24,464 bases of DNA, from the IMG/VR virus record IMGVR_UViG_3300049810_002660, positions 1 through 24,464 of that record. The stretch is one strand, 5' to 3'. The position numbers and the translations under genes are program-made. The notes beneath the pieces were generated by a model. The model worked only from the letters and a program-made list of their open reading frames with translations. It did no database searches and was not told the DNA's origin. The stretch comes from a virus. Positions 1 through 12,854 of the stretch are shown one piece after another (the stretch's first letter is position 1; every line of letters begins with the position of its first letter).

Positions 1-1518
1 TCCAATGGAGGAACTAAACGACTCTCCCTCAAGCTGCGCGCCTTTTACAAAAAACGCCATAGCAATCGGACCCTTCCCGTCTGCTTGCGGCTCCCGCAAG
101 ATAAACTGCAAGTCATGATTTGCAAAGTTAAACAAGTGATCTGCTACGTTGCCCGCCTTAAGGTCGGAAACGATAGCGCTAACACTTACGTTAACAGTGA
201 TTGGGAAATCAAGCGGTCTTGTATATGCGTAAGGAGTTCCAAGTCTTTGAAGCGGTGTTCTAGAAAGAGGAAGCTCGATACTAAAACTTTGAACGTGACA
301 GCTGCCAATAGTATGATCTGTTGGAGGTGTTCCATCAGGCATAGTATTCATAAGTGCCGAACTACCATCTGTACCAAGATGCATTTCAATGTCTCCTGGA
401 CGTAGGCAAGAAAATCCGTCTGCTTGGCCCGAAAGTTTATCGGCGTCACCAAGAGTTGGGTCTGTTCCGCTATCATCCAAAACGCCACTAACTGGAGTTG
501 GAAGACTGAATTGAACGCCCTGAATAGGTGTTCCACGCTCATTGTTTACAGCAGGAATATCAATATTATGAAATCCTGCATCTGACTTTAAGTTCAAACC
601 TTCTACTGTAACATTAGCTGTAGGCATTCCACCCACAGAAGCTTCAACAGAATAGTTTGTAACATAGCCATTTCCTAAAGCAATAGTAGAGGCTGTGCTG
701 TCATCTGCATCACCATAGTTATCAAAAATGCTGTTGTTAACTGCGTCTGTACCTTGTTTTGTGGTTAAGATGAAATAATTTCTTCCAGCATAATCATCCT
801 CTTGCTTGTCTGTTTTTACAAAATTAACTGCAGTTCCGGCGTCAAGAGCAGCGAAATCTTCTAGGTTAAAGCCCATAAGTTTTTCGTTTGATCCATTAGT
901 TAGATAATAAGAAAAATCTAAACTAACTGTTGGAGGCTCAATAGCTACGGAATCGATTCTGGAAAGCTGTCCAAACTGATTAACGTCTTGCCTGTTGATT
1001 GTAAAACTATAGTTTGCACTTTGCACACGATTAAGTTGTCTTACTGCTGGAAGGATGTCCCAGTCTGTAAGAGCAGCATTATTTGATAAATCATAATTTC
1101 CATTATCTGTGAAATCAGTTAATGCAACCAATGGAGCTTTTACTGCTGTCGATGGCCCACTTTCTTGAGACGCCTCGAAGTACCAGTCTTTGCCATCATC
1201 TGTAACTTTAACTACATCGTCGACGGAATAATCTACTGCAGCGTCAAAGTCGCCTTTAAATGGAGCGACCGCAGCTCCTCCAGCATCGACAAGGTCCGTG
1301 GGTTTGGTAATTAATGACCAAAAGTCAGTGTTGTCTAGGATGCATAATTTTGCGATATTGTCTGGCTCTTTAACCAAGCCCCAAACTTTACTACTAACAT
1401 CGTCGCCATTGGCGTCGCTAGCATTGTTGCTTTTAGCGGTAATGTGGTGGCCTGTAGCTTCAGGCTGACCCACGTACAGCGCTTCACTCTGATAAATAAC
1501 TCTATTTCTAGTTGCCAT
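1..1518 (-). CDS. Major tail tube protein, two tube domains (partial, runs off left edge)
   Basis: An open reading frame without stops runs from the ATG at 1518 leftward through base 1, giving at least 506 residues. Seen: an N-terminal part with a short CBM5/12-like segment (about residues 87-120), then two beta-rich segments of similar style (about 160-312 and 375-506). Each looks like a tail-tube fold, with a long strand pair followed by an 'F/Y-x-hydrophobic' strand ladder. The layout resembles tube proteins that carry two tube domains per chain and stack as trimers, as in phage T5. Position directly after head-closure, completion and terminator-like genes is the usual place for the major tail protein. 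The gene is clearly richer in G+C than its neighbours (hand count 61-180: about 51%), fitting codon selection in an abundantly made protein. The C-terminus is missing. Tube assignment is by fold style and order, not by a clear sequence match. Confidence 0.65.
   Translation of the reverse strand, partial: MATRNRVIYQSEALYVGQPEATGHHITAKSNNASDANGDDVSSKVWGLVKEPDNIAKLCILDNTDFWSLITKPTDLVDAGGAAVAPFKGDFDAAVDYSVDDVVKVTDDGKDWYFEASQESGPSTAVKAPLVALTDFTDNGNYDLSNNAALTDWDILPAVRQLNRVQSANYSFTINRQDVNQFGQLSRIDSVAIEPPTVSLDFSYYLTNGSNEKLMGFNLEDFAALDAGTAVNFVKTDKQEDDYAGRNYFILTTKQGTDAVNNSIFDNYGDADDSTASTIALGNGYVTNYSVEASVGGMPTANVTVEGLNLKSDAGFHNIDIPAVNNERGTPIQGVQFSLPTPVSGVLDDSGTDPTLGDADKLSGQADGFSCLRPGDIEMHLGTDGSSALMNTMPDGTPPTDHTIGSCHVQSFSIELPLSRTPLQRLGTPYAYTRPLDFPITVNVSVSAIVSDLKAGNVADHLFNFANHDLQFILREPQADGKGPIAMAFFVKGAQLEGESFSSSIG
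1159..1260 (-). other. CBM5/12-like segment in the tail tube protein
   Basis: Residues about 87-120 of the tail tube protein read as an aromatic, a Y-x-x-x-D-x-V core, a short turn with DGK and then W-Y-F. This is the pattern of small chitin-binding-type (CBM5/12) modules and matches similar segments in four other places in this window. It is the weakest member of the set, since the opening aromatic is F rather than W. Confidence 0.35.
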
Positions 1519-1529
1519 AATTAAAAGTA

Positions 1530-1566
1530 TTCTCTTTCTATTACATTAACTTTTTTAAAAAGAGAA
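1530..1566 (-). promoter_or_regulatory. Inverted repeat ahead of the tail tube gene
   Basis: In the 49-base gap between the 341-aa gene and the tail tube gene, TTCTCTTT (1530-1537) is the exact reverse complement of AAAGAGAA (1559-1566), with a 21-base A/T-rich loop. On the minus strand the second arm lies within about 12 bases of the tube start codon and overlaps its purine-rich ribosome-binding region. It could be an RNA stem affecting translation or processing. It lacks a U-tract and so is not a convincing terminator. An 8-bp repeat in AT-rich DNA may be chance. Confidence 0.25.
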
Positions 1567-1567
1567 A

Positions 1568-2593
1568 TTAAATTCTTGGATAGCGATATGTATTAACCTC
1601 AAAATCTATAAATCCTACGAATGTATTTGGGTTAATTGTTTTAGTTACTCTATCGCTAAGCTTGGAAATATCCACTCTATCAATATAATGTAATGCTGAT
1701 GGATTATTATTTAATCTATGTTGTGCTAAATCTTCGTAATTAAAATTAAATGCGTCTCCGTATTCATTAAGGGGGTAGTCTTCAAAAGCAAGCGCGGCAA
1801 AACATTCTCTAGAGGAATCATTAAAGATAGATAATACTGCGTCAAGCTGATAAATATTCTCAGCCATAACGACACATCGTATGTCTGCCATAGTTTTTTC
1901 TTCTCCACCCAATGAGAATGGATCGTTTGTTGATCTAATATTATTTATAAATATTGCTGGAAGTACTTGATCGTAAGGAGGTATTGGGTTTAAATCTTGA
2001 TTAAATCTACTATTAAAATCAAACTTGCTTTCTATAATTAAATTTTCTTCTGTTTCATTTGTAACATATATATTAAAATCTTTTACAGAATATTCTGCTT
2101 GTACTACTGATGCTGATGAACCTAATGATGTCACTACTCTTCCATTTATATAATCTATAAAAACTATATCTCCATTTTGGCTAGTTGCAGTCCATGTTAT
2201 ATCTTCCCACTTATTTGATACGCCTGGTTCTTCAGCTTGTTCTGTATATTCCATAGCAATCCAAGCCTGTCCATTATGCTCTACAAAATCTCTGGGCTGA
2301 TAATTATCTGTGTTGCTCCAAGCTGTTAGCGTGGAAGGGTCTATGCCGCCGCTTTTAGGAACACTAGTTCCATCAATACTCACGTTAAATGGTACGTCTG
2401 CATCAGTAATGCTTTTGTCAAACACCCATTGTTTGTAAGGGCTAGAAAAAGTTTGTAGTCCAGGCAAGCGATCATCTTCAAGATAAGATAAATCATCTGT
2501 CTTGTTCTCATACGCTTCACCCTTCTTTAATAAATAGTTCTCAAACCATAAAGAAAAGCTTGTTGTAATTTCGTGCTGGAATTGTGGTTTCAT
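1568..2593 (-). CDS. Tail terminator/completion-like protein with inserted CBM-like module
   Basis: 341 residues, starting at an ATG that overlaps the stop of the upstream gene by 4 bases (ATGA). Seen: an N-terminal alpha/beta part (1-80), a CBM5/12-like module (about 88-133), a beta segment containing DYINGRVV, and a C-terminal half with an alternating strand/helix pattern (PFSLGGEEKTMADIRCVVMA, then LDAVLSIF). The last part looks like the small alpha/beta ring proteins that cap phage tails. Position between the completion protein and the tube protein supports a tail terminator or neck role, analogous to lambda gpU. The module seems inserted in a loop of the N-terminal domain, since sequence on both sides (SIDGTSVP before, NGDIVFIDY after) reads as one split beta sheet. 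I do not recognise a specific family, so the function is inferred from order and fold style. Confidence 0.5.
   Translation of the reverse strand: MKPQFQHEITTSFSLWFENYLLKKGEAYENKTDDLSYLEDDRLPGLQTFSSPYKQWVFDKSITDADVPFNVSIDGTSVPKSGGIDPSTLTAWSNTDNYQPRDFVEHNGQAWIAMEYTEQAEEPGVSNKWEDITWTATSQNGDIVFIDYINGRVVTSLGSSASVVQAEYSVKDFNIYVTNETEENLIIESKFDFNSRFNQDLNPIPPYDQVLPAIFINNIRSTNDPFSLGGEEKTMADIRCVVMAENIYQLDAVLSIFNDSSRECFAALAFEDYPLNEYGDAFNFNYEDLAQHRLNNNPSALHYIDRVDISKLSDRVTKTINPNTFVGFIDFEVNTYRYPRI
2195..2332 (-). other. CBM5/12-like module in the terminator-like protein
   Basis: Residues about 88-133 show the clearest small carbohydrate-binding pattern in the window: AWSNTDNYQPRDFVEHNGQA, then W-I-A, and after 18 residues W-E-D-I. 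This follows the CBM5/12 plan W-(n)-Y-x-x-x-D-x-V-x-x-x-G-x-x-(Y/W), then (n)-P-(n)-W-x-x-(I/V). Ligand binding is not shown; the fold is also used as a generic surface decoration. Confidence 0.55.
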
Positions 2594-3171
2594 AATGTTA
2601 AGCCATAAGATTGAAGTTTTGTTTTGAAATTATTAAGTATACTTGATATATAAGATGTATTTCTAAATACACCTCCAGTGCTATATTTAGATTGGAAACC
2701 TTCTCCTGATCTGCTGGCGCTAGATTCTACATCAATATAGTTTCCTATTCCAGACACCCCCTGCTCAATGGATTTAACCCAGCTTCTGCCTGAAGCCCAG
2801 GGCAAGGGAGTCGCGGCATATATATCTTCTTTATTTGGAATTTCAACAATGTATCTTCTGGTTGCGGTGCGCTTCTGATTTCTTAAGAAGCGAATTGAGA
2901 TAGACTTTTCTAAAAACTTTCTAAGATCTTCTGCTGGAGCTTCAGCTCTATCGAAGCCAAGAAAACCAAACAACGTACCCTTTGTCACGAAAGCACCATT
3001 AGATTCATTATTAAGATCCCTCGTTACAGGATGCATGTCGAACTCTCTAAATAGTTCTTTCTTGCATTTTTCAAAGTGCGCAAACACTTGTGTGTCCATT
3101 TGTTTTTCTACATTTTTATCTTGCAGAAGTTTAAGTTGTAGGGATCGTCTTAATGCCTGGCTCTGAATCAT
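2590..3171 (-). CDS. HK97 gp10-like tail-completion/neck protein
   Basis: 193 residues. The start overlaps the head-closure gene by 4 bases and the stop overlaps the next gene by 4 bases, so all three are coupled. Seen: a charged helical N-terminus (1-50), the segment GTLFGFLGF (about 66-74), then IPNKEDIYAATPLPWASGRS, followed by W-V-x-x-I-E-x-G-V-S-G and S-A-S-R-S-G-E-G-F-Q. These G/W/SRSG motifs are the kind I associate with gp10-like tail-completion proteins of siphoviruses and their marine relatives. The protein would sit at the head-tail junction and let the pre-assembled tail join the capsid. Family assignment rests on motif memory and gene order. Confidence 0.5.
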   Translation of the reverse strand: MIQSQALRRSLQLKLLQDKNVEKQMDTQVFAHFEKCKKELFREFDMHPVTRDLNNESNGAFVTKGTLFGFLGFDRAEAPAEDLRKFLEKSISIRFLRNQKRTATRRYIVEIPNKEDIYAATPLPWASGRSWVKSIEQGVSGIGNYIDVESSASRSGEGFQSKYSTGGVFRNTSYISSILNNFKTKLQSYGLTL

Positions 3172-3626
3172 TTTGCTTCTACAGGTTTTAGATACAAAGT
3201 ATAATAATTGACTTCAAACAGGCCATGTGCTCGTGGATCAGAGTCAACCATGAACATTCTCTCATCAAACTCTATTCTTTTTACATCTTTAATTTGTAGA
3301 TAATCTTCTTTTCTAAGTTTAATCCTGACACGACTATTCCCGTCTACTCTTTTTACTTTAGTACTCGCCCCGAACTCTCCAAAGTATTCTGTGTCTCTAT
3401 TGTCATCATATAATATGCGAGCTTGAAATATAAATTTTTGTGGTACGTTTTGTACGCTAGGTGCTGCTCCAGTATTATTATAAATATAATTGTAATTTAT
3501 ATCTGTGTTGATAACAACCTTCTGAGCTTCTTTGTAGACAACAATCTCTCTCGCGAATGTGTCATGCAAATGTGCGAACTGTTGTGCAAAAACTTTTTTT
3601 GCTAGATCTGATATAAAACTTGCCAT
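3168..3626 (-). CDS. Head closure (head-tail joining) protein
   Basis: 152 residues, first gene of the leftward set in this window. Seen: a helical N-terminus (1-28), then a beta-rich C-terminal part with RVRIKLRKEDYLQIKDVKRI and a later SDPRAHGLF followed by Y-T-L-Y-L-K-P. A compact SH3-like beta barrel of this kind, placed just before a gp10-like gene, fits the head-closure/gp16-like connector ring that plugs the portal after packaging. There is no strong Shine-Dalgarno ahead of the ATG. The assignment is by fold style and order. Confidence 0.5.
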   Translation of the reverse strand: MASFISDLAKKVFAQQFAHLHDTFAREIVVYKEAQKVVINTDINYNYIYNNTGAAPSVQNVPQKFIFQARILYDDNRDTEYFGEFGASTKVKRVDGNSRVRIKLRKEDYLQIKDVKRIEFDERMFMVDSDPRAHGLFEVNYYTLYLKPVEAK

Positions 3627-5831: not shown

Positions 5832-8800
5832 ATGAGTATAAACATTGATGTACATGGAAACACAACACCTCTAGAAAGAGATGTACAAGCTGCTGTTAAG
5901 CGGATAAATCGTACTGGGGGCATCAAAATACGCTTAGATGAAAAAGGGGTTACTCAACCCCTTGGAAACATGAAGCGTAGCGCTGATGAGTTTACAAAAT
6001 CATTAGAAGCATCTAACGCCCGTGTTCTTGCGTTCGGAGCTTCTGTTGGGATTATCAATGCCGTTGCAGATGCATTTAAGGGGCTAGTGACAAGCACCAT
6101 GAAGGTTGAAAAGAACCTGACTGACATTAATGTAGTCATGGGTCTTACTAATAAACAACTAGATAAATTTGGAGGTGGTTTATTCAAGGTCGCAAAAGAA
6201 ACTGGCGCAGGATTCGACGCGGCTAGTGAAGCTGCAACTGAATTTGCTCGTCAAGGTTTAAGCGTTAACGAAACTTTAAAACGAACCAAAGACGCTCTTG
6301 TTTTGACTAGGTTGACAGGCATGAAAGCTGCAGAATCTGTGAAATCTTTAACCGCAGCCATGAATACATTTAAGGGTGAAATATCTGACTCCACAGCTTT
6401 GGTAAGTAAGTTTGCTGCGGTAGATGTTAAGTTTGCTGTTAGTGCTGAGGATTTTGCTCAAGCCATAGCTCGATCTGGTCAGGCTGCTAGAGATGCAGGG
6501 GTTGATATTAACCAATTAATAGGATTAGTAACTGCAGCTCAAGAGCGTACTGCTCGTGGTGGCGCTGTTATTGGTAATAGTTTTAAAACAATTTTCACCA
6601 GAGTACAAAGAAGCTCTACTCTTAACGAGCTAGAGAATATTGGTATAGCTGTAAGAGATTTGTCAGGAAATACATTGCCCGCAATTAAAATTCTTGAAAG
6701 CTTAGCTAAAAAATACGACCACCTTAATGATGCTCAAAGAGCTTACATCTCTCAGAATGTGGCTGGAGTTTTCCAAGTGAATATTCTTAAGGCTGCTTTG
6801 GCAGACCTTGGTAAAGCTAATAGCGTTACAGCTCAAGCAACTCAAATTGCTGCAAGCGCTACTGACGAATCTAATAAAAAGAACGAACAATTAAGGCAAA
6901 CTATGTCTGCCCTCGCTGGAGAAACAGGCGTGGCGGTTCAACAGTTAGCTAAAACAATCGGAGATATTGCTCTTGCTCCTGGAATAAATAAAGTTTTAGA
7001 CGGCATCAAGGGCATGGCCGAGTGGGCTACTGGGATTTTAGGAAACGGAGAAAATGAGGGAAATAAATTCGCCCAAGGTTTATTAAAGGGAATTGGTAAT
7101 GTTATTACTGGCCCTGGGCTTGTTGTGTTTGGAGCTTTGTTTACAAAACTTTTTGTGAATGCAGCAAAATATGCAGCGAGCAGTTTGTCTAGTTTATTAA
7201 ATATCAATAAAAGCGCTTCTGCTAGAAAAAATATTGAACAAAGTTTGATGATGGTTCTGACTCAGAATGCAGCGCTACAACAAGAGATGCTTAGGACTGA
7301 TATTTCTAGGGCTCAAAAAGAGCAGATGATTTTAAATATTATTAAACAGCAAACAGTCGAAGCTCAGAAGCTCTCTCAAATAAGCAGGTCTATGTCTCCA
7401 GGACTTATTAAATCTGGAGTCGGGCCAAATCTAGCATACAAACCAAGAAGAGCTTTCGGGTTTGTTCCTAATTTTGCTGACGGTGGCGACGAAAAGCAAA
7501 TGGCTAGAGCAGGAGGTTATACCCCAGGACACTTAAGGTCTATGAATATTCCTGGCGCAGGAGGAGTTATATACAACAGCTCGGAAACTGTTAAAAGATT
7601 CCCAGGATTATCGCAACCCGCAATCATGCCACCTCAATCAAGCAAAGCTGGAGAAAATTACAAGAAAATGTTCGGCGCCGCACATGGATTTGATCCTTAC
7701 GCGGCGAATGGATTTGTGCCCAATTTTGCTGTTCCGTTCGATCAAGCTTATCGTATTAGTGGCGACACGCTCAAAACGTACAAGGGACTAAGCTCTAGAC
7801 AACAAAAAGATCTACTGCGCTTTGAAAGAACTGAAGCTTCTAAAATAATGCAAGGAAACGAACTCAATAAAGTAGGAGGGTCAAACATTCTCAAGAGCTA
7901 TTTGGCTAAGCAACAAATGAACAGAAAGTATGCCATGTTCGTGCCTCCTGAAGGATTCAAAAGCCCAGTATCTTTTTACAAAGACGGTAAAAAACCTCAA
8001 GTATCATGGCCTGTATATGGACTAAAACCGAAACTTGGAATGAAAGATCCTAACTTAAGTAAAATGATGGAAAAATCGTTTAAAGAAGCTGGCTCTCAAT
8101 ATGCAAGTAAAATTTACAGCATAATTGAAAATCCAGATGGAAAAGTGAGTGGAGAACAGTTTTGGAGTAAATACAAGTCTGATAAAGCTGGAGGAGCTAT
8201 GGGGGCATATAATTCTGCAGTTGGCGCTGTGTTCGAAACGGCTGTCAACGCAGCTATGAACTACGCAGCTAAGGTTCCTGATGGACAAGCTGACTTTGAT
8301 GTCCGAGGTGCAGATAAGAATAAACTATCTAGAATATTTAATATAAGCGGTGTCGGGCTTGGGGCTTTTAAATTAGGCGATTACAAAAATAACTCTAGCA
8401 GCGTAGGCAATCGAAGATCTTTCTATCAAAAAATAGCTAAACAGGAAAAATTCAAGCCAAATAAAGCTTTTGGATACATTCCTAACTTTGCCGCAAACGC
8501 TTTAACAGATGCAATAGAAAGAGAAAAGGGAGCGGGCATTCCTGTATCTCAGATCAGAGTTGGAACTCATTCTCGACTAAAAAATCAAAGTAATCCACTA
8601 GGCATTGGAGTCACTAACACCAAGGACGAACCCAATGGGCTAGCGGATGTATTTAAGGCTAGTGGATTTGTTCCAAATTTTGCAATTAAAGATTTCTTTA
8701 CTCAAATGCAAAGAGATCCTGAAGAAACTAAAAAAATACAAGCTATTAATGACAAGCTAGTAAAGAAAAAAGAAAAACAACTAAAAGCCTTAGACGGACA

Positions 8801-11800
8801 TACAAGGACAATTAAAAAACTAGAAAATAAAAATAATTTAACCGATAAAGAAACGTCTAAACTTGCAAACGCTAGAAAGCTTGCTGCAAATACTGAGGCG
8901 AAATTAAAGCAAACAACTGACAAACTGATCGCAAGTAATCAAGCTGCAGCCTCAACCAGAAGTCGAAGTGGTAGAGCTGGCGCTGCTATTGCTCGAAACG
9001 GTGCGATGGCTGGCTTTGGGGGTATGTTTGCTGCAGATATGATCGCCGGACAAATAACCTCTCATGCGGACCCAACAAACAGAGCAGCTCATGGAAGCGC
9101 AGGCATGCTCTCAGGAGCTGCTACAGGAGCAATGATGGGTTCGTTTCTGGGGCCATTGGGGGCGGTTGCTGGTGGATTTATTGGAGCAGCGACAGGAATG
9201 ATATCAGGTATTAACTCGGCTAATGAAGCTAGAGCAGAAGAGAAACGAGCTTTAGAAGAAGCTGCTGAAGCTGCTAGAAAAAATGCAGAAGCTTTTAATA
9301 AAAATTCATTTGCTCAAACACTAGGAAAAGCAGCCGCTACAAACACAGTATTGCAGTCAATTGGAGCATCTGCATCAGGTTCGGTATCTCTTGTCGGTAG
9401 GAATAATAAATCCTCAGTTTCCAGAAACGCAGCACTAGGCCAAACATTTATGGACGGCCAAGCGTTTGAAGGAAGCGTCGCACAAGCTAATGCGGAGCTC
9501 GCTAAAAGAGAATCTGATATTTTTAAAGGAATGACGATTTCTGATGCTATGGATAATTTAGAAAAGACAATCGCGGGAAATGGAGATAGTGGATTTAATG
9601 CAAGAATGTATAACGCTCATAATTTAAATAATCGTGACGGGGAATTTTTTGAAGCGGTTACAAAATATGCTGAAAATCCTACGGCTGGCGGATTTGCAGA
9701 TCTTAAAACAAACTTTAACGAAGATTATAGTAGCCAACTAAACAAATTAAAGGATGCATCAACCTATCTTGCAGAAGGATTGTCGGGCCGATTTTCCTCT
9801 GCACGAAGATTCATTGCACACGATCCAACAGAAGGTCTTGCGGAATCAGGTAAAGCTCAGCAAAACAAGGATAGACAAGGGTACGCAGTAAAAAATCTTG
9901 CAAAATTTTTAGGCAGCATGGATTCAGGAGCAAAAGCAGATCTGAGGGGTTATGCTCAAGCATATCAAAATGAATTTATTAGCAATATATATACAGGCGG
10001 AGTAGAAGGCACTAGAATTCACGACATGAAAATCCAGCGGGGAAAAGAAACGATCGACGCCAAGCTTACAGGCCGAGAAATTGCAGATATACATTCGAAG
10101 GGAACAGAATCAGAAACCGCTAAACGACTTAATCTTAGTGATGAAGATATTAAAAGCTTTAGAGAAGAAAACATTAAAGCTATAAAGCAACAAGGGCAAA
10201 TTCTTAAGCAGCAAACCGAGAACTACATAAAAACATTAAACTTTCAAAAAGTAGAATTAAGTATCCGCCACCAATTAAATCAAACCCTTCAAGAACAAAG
10301 CCAATCTTCTAGAGAGCTAGCTAATAAAAACAAAGCCTTGAGTGCAATTATGGGCAACACTTTATCTCAGGCAGGCAGGCAAAAAATGCAATCCGCAGAA
10401 CAAAGATTAGACATAAACAACGCAAGAGCAAGCTCTGTAGCTAAAGCTCAAGCAGATTATAAATCTAGTCTATTTAAGTCTATCTCTGGAAACACCGTAG
10501 CAAGTCAATCGTTTAGAACGCTTTTTGGCGCAAACAGAAATGCAGAGACAGGAGAAGTAACAATAGACCCCCAAGCATTAAAAGAAAGTGGATTAAAAAC
10601 TGTATTTCAGAAAGCTTATGGCAATGATACTGATGGAGACAAAGCGTTTACAAAATTTGTAAACAACGCAAAGAACACTTCGGTCGAGGATGCGCTCTCT
10701 GGAATTGATGGCAGGGTGATCGAGAGACTAATTTCAGGAGACGATGGGCTTGCTGCAAATAATGATGCTTTGAGGGTTACTTTAGAAGGTATATTAGAGA
10801 AGCGAAAAAACTCTCTAGAGCTATCCGAGGATGAATATAACTCTGCAATAGCTCAGCTTGGTATAATGGATCAAATTAACGACACCATTGCCGAGCAAGC
10901 AGACACAAGAAAAAAAGCGTCAGACGTTCTAGCTTTTGATATCAAGCAGCAAGAAAGGGGTAATCAGCTCGCCCAAAAAAGAATGGAACTAAGCAAAATG
11001 AGCCGCCAGGTTAGACAAGGGCCTGGGTATATAAATTTTGCAACGGGAATCAATAATCAAATCTCCAACATTAATAAATCAACGTTTTTACAGGCAGAAG
11101 ACTTAAGAGATCAAGACGGCTTCGCTGCTAGACAATTTAATATAGACCAGCAAGGAAGATATAATCAACGAGATCTATTAGATCAACAAATAGCTTCCAG
11201 CTCCGACGAAGAAAACAGGGCAACGCTTCAAAAAGAATTAGAAATTTTAAACGAAAAAATACAACTCGCTCAAGACGAACGAGATGCAGAATCTAAACAT
11301 AATAAAGACACGATAGTACTCCTGGAACGAATGGCCGAAAAAAGAAAAGAAATGCTCGAAAGTCAATTGGCCCTGCGACGTGGACCAGATGCGTTCCAAA
11401 ACGGCATTAATGAATCCATGAAGAAAATGTCTGACGAATCTAAAGATTTTGAATATAAATTTGGAGAAGCTATACCTAACGCTTTCGCTAACTCTTTAAG
11501 CTCCGCAATGACTAATGCAATACGACAAGGAGGAACCTTAAAAGAAACCCTAACTGACGCCGCCATTTCATTTCTAAATACAATGAATCAAATGTATGCT
11601 CAACAATTCGCTCGAAACGCATCTCTTGCATTATTTGGAGATGGCCAAGCTAAATATAGTGGAGGCTTAGTTAGAAGAAACAAAGGAGGGCTGGTTCCTG
11701 GAAGAGTTACTAATGGAGAGTATCGCATGAACCCTGGGGCTGTGAGCCGATACGGCGTAGGCATGATGGATTCTTTAAATGCAGGCCATGTCCCCAAGAA

Positions 11801-12854
11801 AAACTCAGGAGGAGAGGCTAAAAAAGAAGGGTCAATGCTTGGAGCTCTCGCTGGTTTTGGAATTACTGCTGGCCTCCAAGGGCTTCTTGCTCCGAAAGAA
11901 CAAAAGAAACATGTCGCAAGGCAAAAAGATCAATTTGAAACAGACGGAGCGTGGAAAAGACATAATATGTCTGCTCATTACATGCAAAATAATTCAAGAG
12001 TGGGTGAATATGTTGAGGGGTTAAGAGAACAAAAAAGAGCCGAAACTGCAGCTTGGGTAAAAAAGATGGAAAAGCGCGCTCAACTCGGCAGATCAATAAC
12101 CAATTTCGTTGGCAATATGGCCATGAGTAAACTAGGTAATCATCTTGAAAACTCCGGAGCTTTTGCTAAAGCAGATATAGCTATGGGTCTAGGCAAGGAG
12201 GTCTCCAGCTCAGATGGTTTGTTTAAAGGAATACAGGCTCCAGATGGAGGCTTGAGGCTTACACAAGATGTTGATCTAGGGGTAGGTTCGTCTTATAAGG
12301 CTGGAGATTTAATTCCTGCGTCTGTATTTAATGACGCCAGTTATAACATGGACAATTTTAGCGTAGTACAAGGCGGTAACCATGGAGGGGTTTATAACTT
12401 AGGCTCATCTATGGAAAACTGGGGCGATAAAATTGGAAAAAAGTACGGTAAGAAAAAGAAAAACTCAGGCGGCCCGGTTAATGGAGCATCAGGAATCGAT
12501 AGAATTCCTGCAATGCTAAGCGAGGGCGAATATGTAATCCGCGCGGACGCAGCAAGAAAAATCGGCAGGCCAACATTAGAAAAAATAAATTCAGGAAGAT
12601 TTAATACAGGAGGTATTGTTTCCAGCAACTCTTCGGGCGTACCTGGGCAAGAGTCTACAGGAGCCATGAATAATAACATTTCAATCACAGTTAACGTTAG
12701 TGATTCAGGGGGAACAAGCGAAGAAAAGGATAAAGAAGGAGGTAGCAACAAAGACAAAATGGATAAAATGTCTGCAAGAATAAAAGATCAAGTTGTTACA
12801 GTAATTAAGGAAGAAAGCAGGCCAGGAGGATTGCTTGATAAGGGAGGAAATTAA
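5832..12854 (+). CDS. Tail tape measure protein with modular inserts
   Basis: 2340 residues. Sets tail length inside the tube and is ejected ahead of the DNA. Seen: a TP901-type tape measure domain (about 85-340, with LTDINVVMGLTNKQLDKF, an E-F-A-R-Q-G-L-S stretch, and TAAQERTARGGAVIGNSFKT); a hydrophobic stretch near 420-445; four GFVPNFA-type motifs (543-549, 627-633, 881-887, 945-951) bounding modules, one with nuclease-like residues; coiled coil about 952-1040; an A/G-rich glycine-zipper-like membrane-active stretch (about 1049-1125); long helical coiled-coil rod to about 1930; and two GG-(n)-GEY repeats near the C-terminus (about 1943-1985 and 2211-2261) of the type common in tape measures. 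By the rule of about 1.5 angstrom per residue the upper limit for the tail is near 350 nm, less if the inserts do not span. The next gene overlaps the stop by one base. Confidence 0.93.
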   Translation: MSINIDVHGNTTPLERDVQAAVKRINRTGGIKIRLDEKGVTQPLGNMKRSADEFTKSLEASNARVLAFGASVGIINAVADAFKGLVTSTMKVEKNLTDINVVMGLTNKQLDKFGGGLFKVAKETGAGFDAASEAATEFARQGLSVNETLKRTKDALVLTRLTGMKAAESVKSLTAAMNTFKGEISDSTALVSKFAAVDVKFAVSAEDFAQAIARSGQAARDAGVDINQLIGLVTAAQERTARGGAVIGNSFKTIFTRVQRSSTLNELENIGIAVRDLSGNTLPAIKILESLAKKYDHLNDAQRAYISQNVAGVFQVNILKAALADLGKANSVTAQATQIAASATDESNKKNEQLRQTMSALAGETGVAVQQLAKTIGDIALAPGINKVLDGIKGMAEWATGILGNGENEGNKFAQGLLKGIGNVITGPGLVVFGALFTKLFVNAAKYAASSLSSLLNINKSASARKNIEQSLMMVLTQNAALQQEMLRTDISRAQKEQMILNIIKQQTVEAQKLSQISRSMSPGLIKSGVGPNLAYKPRRAFGFVPNFADGGDEKQMARAGGYTPGHLRSMNIPGAGGVIYNSSETVKRFPGLSQPAIMPPQSSKAGENYKKMFGAAHGFDPYAANGFVPNFAVPFDQAYRISGDTLKTYKGLSSRQQKDLLRFERTEASKIMQGNELNKVGGSNILKSYLAKQQMNRKYAMFVPPEGFKSPVSFYKDGKKPQVSWPVYGLKPKLGMKDPNLSKMMEKSFKEAGSQYASKIYSIIENPDGKVSGEQFWSKYKSDKAGGAMGAYNSAVGAVFETAVNAAMNYAAKVPDGQADFDVRGADKNKLSRIFNISGVGLGAFKLGDYKNNSSSVGNRRSFYQKIAKQEKFKPNKAFGYIPNFAANALTDAIEREKGAGIPVSQIRVGTHSRLKNQSNPLGIGVTNTKDEPNGLADVFKASGFVPNFAIKDFFTQMQRDPEETKKIQAINDKLVKKKEKQLKALDGHTRTIKKLENKNNLTDKETSKLANARKLAANTEAKLKQTTDKLIASNQAAASTRSRSGRAGAAIARNGAMAGFGGMFAADMIAGQITSHADPTNRAAHGSAGMLSGAATGAMMGSFLGPLGAVAGGFIGAATGMISGINSANEARAEEKRALEEAAEAARKNAEAFNKNSFAQTLGKAAATNTVLQSIGASASGSVSLVGRNNKSSVSRNAALGQTFMDGQAFEGSVAQANAELAKRESDIFKGMTISDAMDNLEKTIAGNGDSGFNARMYNAHNLNNRDGEFFEAVTKYAENPTAGGFADLKTNFNEDYSSQLNKLKDASTYLAEGLSGRFSSARRFIAHDPTEGLAESGKAQQNKDRQGYAVKNLAKFLGSMDSGAKADLRGYAQAYQNEFISNIYTGGVEGTRIHDMKIQRGKETIDAKLTGREIADIHSKGTESETAKRLNLSDEDIKSFREENIKAIKQQGQILKQQTENYIKTLNFQKVELSIRHQLNQTLQEQSQSSRELANKNKALSAIMGNTLSQAGRQKMQSAEQRLDINNARASSVAKAQADYKSSLFKSISGNTVASQSFRTLFGANRNAETGEVTIDPQALKESGLKTVFQKAYGNDTDGDKAFTKFVNNAKNTSVEDALSGIDGRVIERLISGDDGLAANNDALRVTLEGILEKRKNSLELSEDEYNSAIAQLGIMDQINDTIAEQADTRKKASDVLAFDIKQQERGNQLAQKRMELSKMSRQVRQGPGYINFATGINNQISNINKSTFLQAEDLRDQDGFAARQFNIDQQGRYNQRDLLDQQIASSSDEENRATLQKELEILNEKIQLAQDERDAESKHNKDTIVLLERMAEKRKEMLESQLALRRGPDAFQNGINESMKKMSDESKDFEYKFGEAIPNAFANSLSSAMTNAIRQGGTLKETLTDAAISFLNTMNQMYAQQFARNASLALFGDGQAKYSGGLVRRNKGGLVPGRVTNGEYRMNPGAVSRYGVGMMDSLNAGHVPKKNSGGEAKKEGSMLGALAGFGITAGLQGLLAPKEQKKHVARQKDQFETDGAWKRHNMSAHYMQNNSRVGEYVEGLREQKRAETAAWVKKMEKRAQLGRSITNFVGNMAMSKLGNHLENSGAFAKADIAMGLGKEVSSSDGLFKGIQAPDGGLRLTQDVDLGVGSSYKAGDLIPASVFNDASYNMDNFSVVQGGNHGGVYNLGSSMENWGDKIGKKYGKKKKNSGGPVNGASGIDRIPAMLSEGEYVIRADAARKIGRPTLEKINSGRFNTGGIVSSNSSGVPGQESTGAMNNNISITVNVSDSGGTSEEKDKEGGSNKDKMDKMSARIKDQVVTVIKEESRPGGLLDKGGN
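7458..8684 (+). repeat. GFVPNFA-bounded modules in the tape measure
   Basis: Four near-identical heptapeptides: GFVPNFA at 7458-7478, 7710-7730 and 8664-8684, and GYIPNFA at 8472-8492. They delimit three modules of 77, 247 and 57 residues. Module 1 is Gly/Pro-rich and ends HGFDPYAAN before the motif; module 3 contains GIPVSQIRVG and TNTKDEPNGL. Codons differ between copies (GGG/GGA, GTT/GTG/ATT, CCT/CCC/CCA), so protein sequence is conserved rather than DNA recently duplicated. The function of the motif is unknown to me. Confidence 0.8.
7731..8471 (+). other. Possible PD-(D/E)XK nuclease-like domain inside the tape measure
   Basis: The 247-residue module between motifs 2 and 3 looks globular, unlike the flanking rod. 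It has AVGAVFETAV with Glu802 in a helix, then GQADFDVRG with Asp821/Asp823, then KLGDYKNN with Asp850 and Lys852. Glu, Asp, then D-x-K at these spacings follows the PD-(D/E)XK nuclease core. The pattern is short and loose and could arise by chance. Confidence 0.35.

Follow-up and report, generated by a model that had tools for sequence, protein, structure and literature searches.

Here we report that the tape measure protein (TMP) of a virus from the IMG/VR collection is probably built as an internal cassette array, in which a short boundary peptide, GFVPNFA and its near variants, marks off two constant framework modules and a slot for exchangeable enzyme-like effector domains. The usual view of a tape measure is that of a ruler, to which a wall-cutting domain may at most be added. 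The fenced swapping of modules described here suggests that this TMP doubles as a changeable cargo carrier that is sent into the host. The analysed DNA, hereafter the window, is a stretch of 24,464 nucleotides (positions 1 to 24,464 of record IMGVR_UViG_3300049810_002660), and its relatives are referred to by L numbers.

The cassette lies within a 2340-aa open reading frame that is, by its profile matches and gene neighbourhood, the TMP gene of a siphophage-like tail cluster. It matches the PHROG TMP families (best E 3e-53) in addition to the Pfam domain listed in the table, and minor tail genes lie 3' of it (Phage_min_tail and Phage_tail_L in Pfam), with Phage-tail_3 also matched in the tail cluster; the protein thus combines a TMP domain with a position among tail genes. 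The next gene overlaps the TMP gene (at 12854) and has a weak tail-tube match alone. Upstream of the tail cluster, four genes on the (-) strand (window 1-3626) have no Pfam match at E 0.01, and one of them shows a weak carbohydrate-binding match. The C-terminal part of the TMP (window 9600-12851) contains GG-V-G...GEY(V/R)(I/M) repeats (NKGGLVPGRVTNGEYRMNPGAV; SGGPVNGASGIDRIPAMLSEGEYVIRADA), and a GHVPKKNSGG sequence in this repeat region resembles the start of the boundary motif. The 24.5-kb window is a fragment from a virus record; its nearest relatives come from aquatic contigs that reach 205-211 kb. The two nearest, L002 and L006 (IMGVR_UViG_3300017763_000002 and 3300009104_001827), are on contigs of 205 and 211 kb, respectively, and given these sizes the window may be a piece of a jumbo-sized siphophage.

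Features of the tape measure gene and its module cassette (positions in the window; aa numbers refer to the TMP)
Feature	Positions	Strand	Basis
Tape measure protein (TMP) gene, 2340 aa	5832..12854	+	PhageMin_Tail, PHROG TMP families, tail-gene neighbours
PhageMin_Tail domain, conserved N-terminal TMP region, aa 121-311	6192..6764	+	Pfam E 9e-27
Boundary motif 1, GFVPNFA, aa 543	7458..7478	+	Same place in relatives
Framework module 1, 77 aa, GGYxPGxxRxMNIPGxGxVIYNSxExVKxFPGxSQPAIMPPxSSKAGxxY...HGFDPYA	7479..7709	+	56-82% identity to the 4 closest relatives
Boundary motif 2, GFVPNFA, aa 627, left edge of swapped slot	7710..7730	+	DNA similarity ends, median -3 bp
Hypervariable slot module, 247 aa, aa 634-880, PD-(D/E)XK-like	7731..8471	+	101-sequence alignment, iterated profile
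Putative catalytic set: Glu802 (8235), Asp823 (8298), Asp850-x-Lys852 (8379-8387), Lys867 (8430)	8235..8432	+	Alignment invariance
Boundary motif 3, GYIPNFA, aa 881, right edge of slot	8472..8492	+	DNA similarity resumes, median 0 bp
Framework module 3, 57 aa, AIxREKxAGVPVSQIRVGxxxxL...NPxGxGVTNTxDEPxGL	8493..8663	+	52-73% identity to the 4 closest relatives
Boundary motif 4, GFVPNFA, aa 945	8664..8684	+	Missing in a few relatives, e.g. L010-L012, L014

The pattern G[FY][VI]PNFA occurs four times in the window TMP. A first-pass annotation had described these near-identical heptapeptides, separated by 77, 247 and 57 residues and encoded by differing codons; on rereading of the ORF, the positions and gaps proved exact and all four 21-mers were distinct from one another. 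The only 6-mers present three times in the TMP are those of the motif. A chance origin was rejected, because shuffling the protein 5000 times produced no motif and because the motif is found at homologous places in relatives: related TMPs were searched for it, as its absence there would count against the proposal, and it was present at these places. When the whole region was modelled with AF2, all four motifs fell into segments of pLDDT<50 between predicted secondary structure elements; the model is poor (mean pLDDT 54) and of insufficient quality for fold searches, and the low confidence indicates that the motif segments are probably flexible. The motif was not seen to be part of one continuous ordinary fold in this model.

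Scans with the TMP, framework modules 1 and 3 and the motif DNA as queries, supplemented by one bacterial-genome scan, yielded 461 inter-motif modules in 145 distinct proteins that bear the motif, from IMG/VR and metagenome-assembled genomes (MAGs). In TMPs longer than 1500 aa the number of motifs ranges from 2 to 12, with 4 the most frequent. The consensus derived from 606 instances is A-[AS]-x-G-[FYH]-[IV]-P-N-[FY]-A, where P and N were preset by the search pattern. Neither the cassette nor the framework modules had a match among 50,697 cultured-phage records; the N-terminal domain of the TMP has distant cultured-phage matches, and two cultured-phage records reach 60-80% identity, with the cassette region by itself having no cultured match. 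Matches in genome collections came from Flavobacteriales/Flavobacteriaceae MAGs, one uncultured bacterium and one Halobacteriovorax MAG, and flavobacteria are on this basis a first guess at the hosts. Two contigs binned with the Halobacteriovorax MAG (L123 and L124, the host being the bin label) encode TMPs of ~3,200-3,300 aa with 8 motifs and seven modules that are mostly unseen elsewhere. Around the first motifs of L119, L136 and L192 there is another short module, TM(V/I)ANTSE(V/Y)xVPNxAGxGxAIFNQ(D/N)M, accompanied by extra PNF/PNY copies, which may show the source of the boundary motif. In the literature searched, with journals and preprints partly covered, we found no mention of GFVPNFA or of motif-fenced effectors or cargo in TMPs.

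The common layout of these proteins consists of a motif, a conserved module 1 of 74-81 aa, a motif, the slot, a motif, a conserved last module of 57-71 aa, and a final motif. Framework module 1 forms a cluster of 73 members, all within that length range, and framework module 3 is the final inter-motif module in most TMPs. The slot is variable, from 227 to 340 aa, and at times there are extra modules of 87, 94, 121, 155 or 247 aa, each with its own motif; long module arrays occur in L038, L056, L079 and L124. Kinship of the two framework modules, which look similar by eye, was rejected because hhalign found them unrelated. The earlier proposal that the motifs bracket passenger modules is retained for the variable 247-aa middle module and dropped for the 77- and 57-aa modules, which represent the conserved framework.

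Comparison of related TMPs indicates that exchange, gain and transfer all involve whole modules, from motif to motif. In several pairs the N-termini (~540 aa) are 96-100% identical, yet the slot modules are unrelated: N-terminal identity is 99.3% for L028/L037 and 98.5% for L042/L060, both without any slot similarity, while L041/L048 (100%) and L044/L050 (99.8%) have slots of 29% and 35% identity, respectively. The flanking DNA of L044/L050 and similar swapped pairs, including the downstream genes, is still 95-99% identical. DNA similarity of up to 99.5% halts a few bases from motif 2 and restarts at motif 3. Relative to the end of motif 2, the left breakpoint has a median offset of -3 bp (70% within 15 bp), and the right one, relative to the motif 3 start, has a median offset of 0 bp (92% within 30 bp), based on 222 and 202 comparisons, respectively, of non-independent pairs. 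Such sharp DNA boundaries would fit recombination at the motif codons; the same pattern would arise from recombination in the flanks followed by survival of in-frame whole modules.

Gain of a module is illustrated by L034 and L046 (N-termini 97% identical), where L034 possesses exactly one extra 155-aa module and one extra motif; similarity stops just past motif 2 and restarts with motif 3 of one protein aligned to motif 2 of the other. As for transfer, L034 and L045 (N-termini 69% identical) have in common one segment, 92% identical in DNA and delimited exactly by a motif start and a motif end, with a left flank of 73%, and L021 and L052 carry 100% identical slots on N-termini that are 85% identical. 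On a tree of 64 N-terminal framework regions, the slot class (A, B or C) changes at least 15 times, and 36 slot alleles are distributed among the 64 TMPs. Assembly chimerism is an unlikely source of these patterns, because slot alleles that are identical or closely similar turn up again in samples independent of each other and because the motif DNA itself varies, with 36-42 distinct 21-bp sequences at each of the four places among 52 TMPs. Several near-identical TMP pairs also have a second hypervariable stretch of ~2 kb after the last motif (L028 6698-8728, L037 9578-11911), so the cassette is not the sole fast-changing part of the TMP.

The three slot sequence classes merge, by iterated profile search, into one family of 102 modules that includes the module of the window and is present in 83 of the 111 long TMPs. 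Its 101-row alignment has a mean identity of 16%, and nevertheless one G, one E and one D are each conserved in 101/101 sequences, the acidic residue and the Lys of a (D/E)xK motif in 100/100 (one gap), and the last position is occupied by K (97 sequences) or Q (4). Such a conserved E...D...(D/E)xK...K/Q pattern is the residue signature of PD-(D/E)XK nucleases. With the acidic residues, the (D/E)xK motif and a basic residue or Gln in the next helix all in place, the slot module of the window is a putative PD-(D/E)XK-type nuclease. The core fold of the superfamily is alpha-beta-beta-beta-alpha-beta. An AF2 model of the slot domain, computed with 101 homologues as input (pLDDT 82, pTM 0.76), has short strands at the Asp and at (D/E)xK, and helices at GxxFE and at K867. 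Searches of PDB and BFVD with this model (Foldseek, VIA-align) gave no fold match above noise; rows with a STING-like fold had a Z of about 3 and were treated as noise. There was likewise no significant match of the slot family to Pfam or PHROGs profiles, and nothing in a sequence-profile search of PDB with class A, class B or the joint slot set. Aligned to Mrr_cat by hhalign, the family obtains a probability of 0.1%, with GxxFE and FD in register. Among 196 genomes of the putative host order the slot family occurred in one, and there on a phage contig.

Motif-bounded modules of other kinds are found in the relatives. The best supported is an SNase module of L224, which scores 38.4 bits against a Pfam cut-off of 21 (E 1.9e-9) and matches thermonuclease structures in PDB (E 1e-6). 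The catalytic residues D13, D15, R30, D35, E38 and R77 are invariant in L224, L081 and L209, so that by profile and catalytic Asp/Arg/Glu residues these three, and not the window, have a staphylococcal nuclease module. L148 contains a GHKL/HATPase module just below the Pfam cut-off (E 3.8e-5), and a GNAT-like module in L038, L247 and two others is also below the cut-off (E 0.0017-0.003), matching GNAT structures with E 0.09 at best. The L081/L210 cluster, with D-x(11)-ExK followed by a Lys, appears to be a second PD-(D/E)XK-like type. Unlike modules can be combined in one relative TMP, namely SNase with the PD-(D/E)XK-like type in L081 and the slot family with HATPase in L148. By eye, we noted modules resembling ADP-ribosyltransferase, HAD phosphatase and kinase domains in L162 7921-8550 (-), L270 5178-6212 (+), L318 2529-3278 (+), L183 850-1281 (+) and L179 7387-7974 (-). 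The HAD-like motif was read as DxDGT...VDD and the kinase-like motif as DLHGxN...DPG; neither cluster has Pfam or PDB support, and the ART-like modules lack Pfam support. The first-pass idea that the motifs bracket passenger modules has strong support, from exchanges, gains and transfers of modules whose limits coincide with motif codons, from the enzyme-like domains among the modules, and from the position of all four motifs in low-pLDDT segments.

Several other explanations were weighed against the cassette array. The slot modules could be structural, filling the lumen or binding the tube or tip, with the motif as a linker and with variability that reflects co-evolution with variable tail parts. 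This would agree with the nature of a TMP as a virion structural protein, with the missing fold match of the window module to an enzyme, and with the second variable stretch past the last motif in some pairs. We nevertheless regard a structural role as rather unlikely, given that E, D and (D/E)xK are invariant at such low mean identity, as is typical of active sites, that the SNase module retains its catalytic residues and GHKL and GNAT-like modules exist, and that swapped pairs such as L044/L050 keep 95-99% DNA identity in their flanks and downstream genes. A cell-envelope hydrolase or penetration domain, common inside tape measures, is a very improbable identity for the slot module: there is the precedent of the TM4 TMP, which reportedly has a mid-protein peptidoglycan hydrolase, and of SPbeta-type TMPs annotated as transglycosylases, but no Pfam hydrolase match was obtained in 38 class-A modules, 72 other module representatives or the class-C set, and the conserved residues match PD-(D/E)XK instead.

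Selfish homing offers a different account of the variability, as module drive: the slot nuclease would cut rival cassette alleles in co-infecting phages and be copied in by repair. A nuclease-like module at a fixed place, and exact motif-to-motif units of transfer with DNA similarity that stops at the motif, are what this account would predict. On the other hand, non-nuclease modules share the same boundaries, the putative nuclease is part of the same reading frame as a late structural protein, and homing needs empty sites, whereas the slot family is held by most long TMPs and no clear cassette-less allele was seen. Homing is thus an improbable driver, and more so than a structural role. In-frame insertions with repeated boundary sequences would also result if the TMP had taken up inteins or some other self-excising element; the chance of this is slight in the extreme, as the window module has no Cys/Ser start or His-Asn end (A-VPFD... 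to ...KAF-G), no Hint-type Pfam match was found, and the boundary motifs remain in the protein on both sides.

Under the favoured reading, a cassette array of exchangeable effector domains, the TMP would leave the tail ahead of or together with the DNA. Its modules, extended during travel and folded afterwards, would arrive in the cell envelope or cytoplasm as infection begins; a folded 27-kDa domain may not fit the tail lumen, and hence the domain would have to be extended. Once there, the modules would serve as early effectors whose targets are nucleic acids or proteins of the host or of competitors, and host counter-measures and competition would drive their fast replacement. The motif most likely would keep each domain extended in the tube, with separate folding or release after ejection, and its codons would mark the sites of module recombination. 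The motif itself may serve in processing, by analogy with the VENN peptide of CdiA, or else in docking or as a foldon spacer; no processing protease was identified near the TMP gene. A putative nuclease inside the DNA channel would have to be inactive or selective so as not to endanger the genome of its own phage. In lambda, genome injection brings the TMP into contact with inner-membrane proteins and with a defence nuclease of the host (PMC13190303), and since a TMP meets host proteins at this stage, its cargo would plausibly be first to meet the host.

A wider reading, which is possible though we hold it only tentatively, gives GFVPNFA a dual use: as a peptide, it would be a release or unfolding signal for effectors of the ejected TMP, and as DNA, a recombination seam for an open-ended arsenal (PD-(D/E)XK, SNase, GNAT, GHKL and others). 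If this dual-use reading is true, the system would represent tail-tube-borne effector delivery. If the TMP is an exchangeable cargo array, it would supply long-tailed phages with first-contact weapons before any phage gene expression and would partly explain why TMPs of environmental phages are so extreme in size and variability. It would also make testable the question of what siphophage tails deliver besides DNA. The boundary peptide would further provide a marker with which to mine for unknown early effectors and enzymes of host take-over, and it might serve as a tag by which cargo is loaded into tails.

Comparison with known systems places the array between several of them. The slot family resembles the PD-(D/E)XK superfamily (Mrr, Hjc) in the order and nature of the residues GxxFE, D, (D/E)xK and K/Q, and differs from it in its spacing of ~27 residues from the Asp to (D/E)xK and in being known only from TMPs here. 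An enzyme domain within a TMP is shared with SPbeta-type transglycosylase TMPs and with the TMP of TM4, in which an internal domain (Mt3) is said to act on peptidoglycan. The TM4 and SPbeta-type enzymes target peptidoglycan, and motif-fenced exchangeable modules were found described for none of these TMPs in the literature searched.

Polyvalent proteins of phages and conjugative elements contain ARTs, kinases, GNATs and nucleases (Iyer et al. 2017, PMC5512222), and by analogy the module repertoire described here resembles that of such ejected proteins and of polymorphic toxins (PMC5512222). As is proposed for polyvalent proteins, a single polypeptide would combine several putative enzymatic domains and reach the host along with the DNA. 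However, polyvalent proteins use head/MuF-type or conjugation carriers and their separation is ascribed to MPTase domains, whereas here the carrier is a TMP and the separator a heptapeptide, and the window TMP has one putative enzyme, unlike modules being combined in its relatives; the word 'tape' is absent from the polyvalent-protein paper (PMC5512222). With polymorphic toxins (CdiA with its VENN peptide, Rhs) the array has in common a constant delivery protein, an exchangeable module and a short conserved junction peptide, which in CdiA must be removed for delivery (PMC9424206). In contrast to CdiA and Rhs, where the toxin is C-terminal, the slot occupies an internal position (aa 634-880 of 2340), is fenced on both sides and resides in a virion protein; the boundary peptide is unrelated, and no immunity gene is expected here. 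The GFVPNFA system would work like polyvalent proteins and polymorphic toxins but fits neither, being distinguished by its TMP carrier, its internal module and its own boundary peptide.
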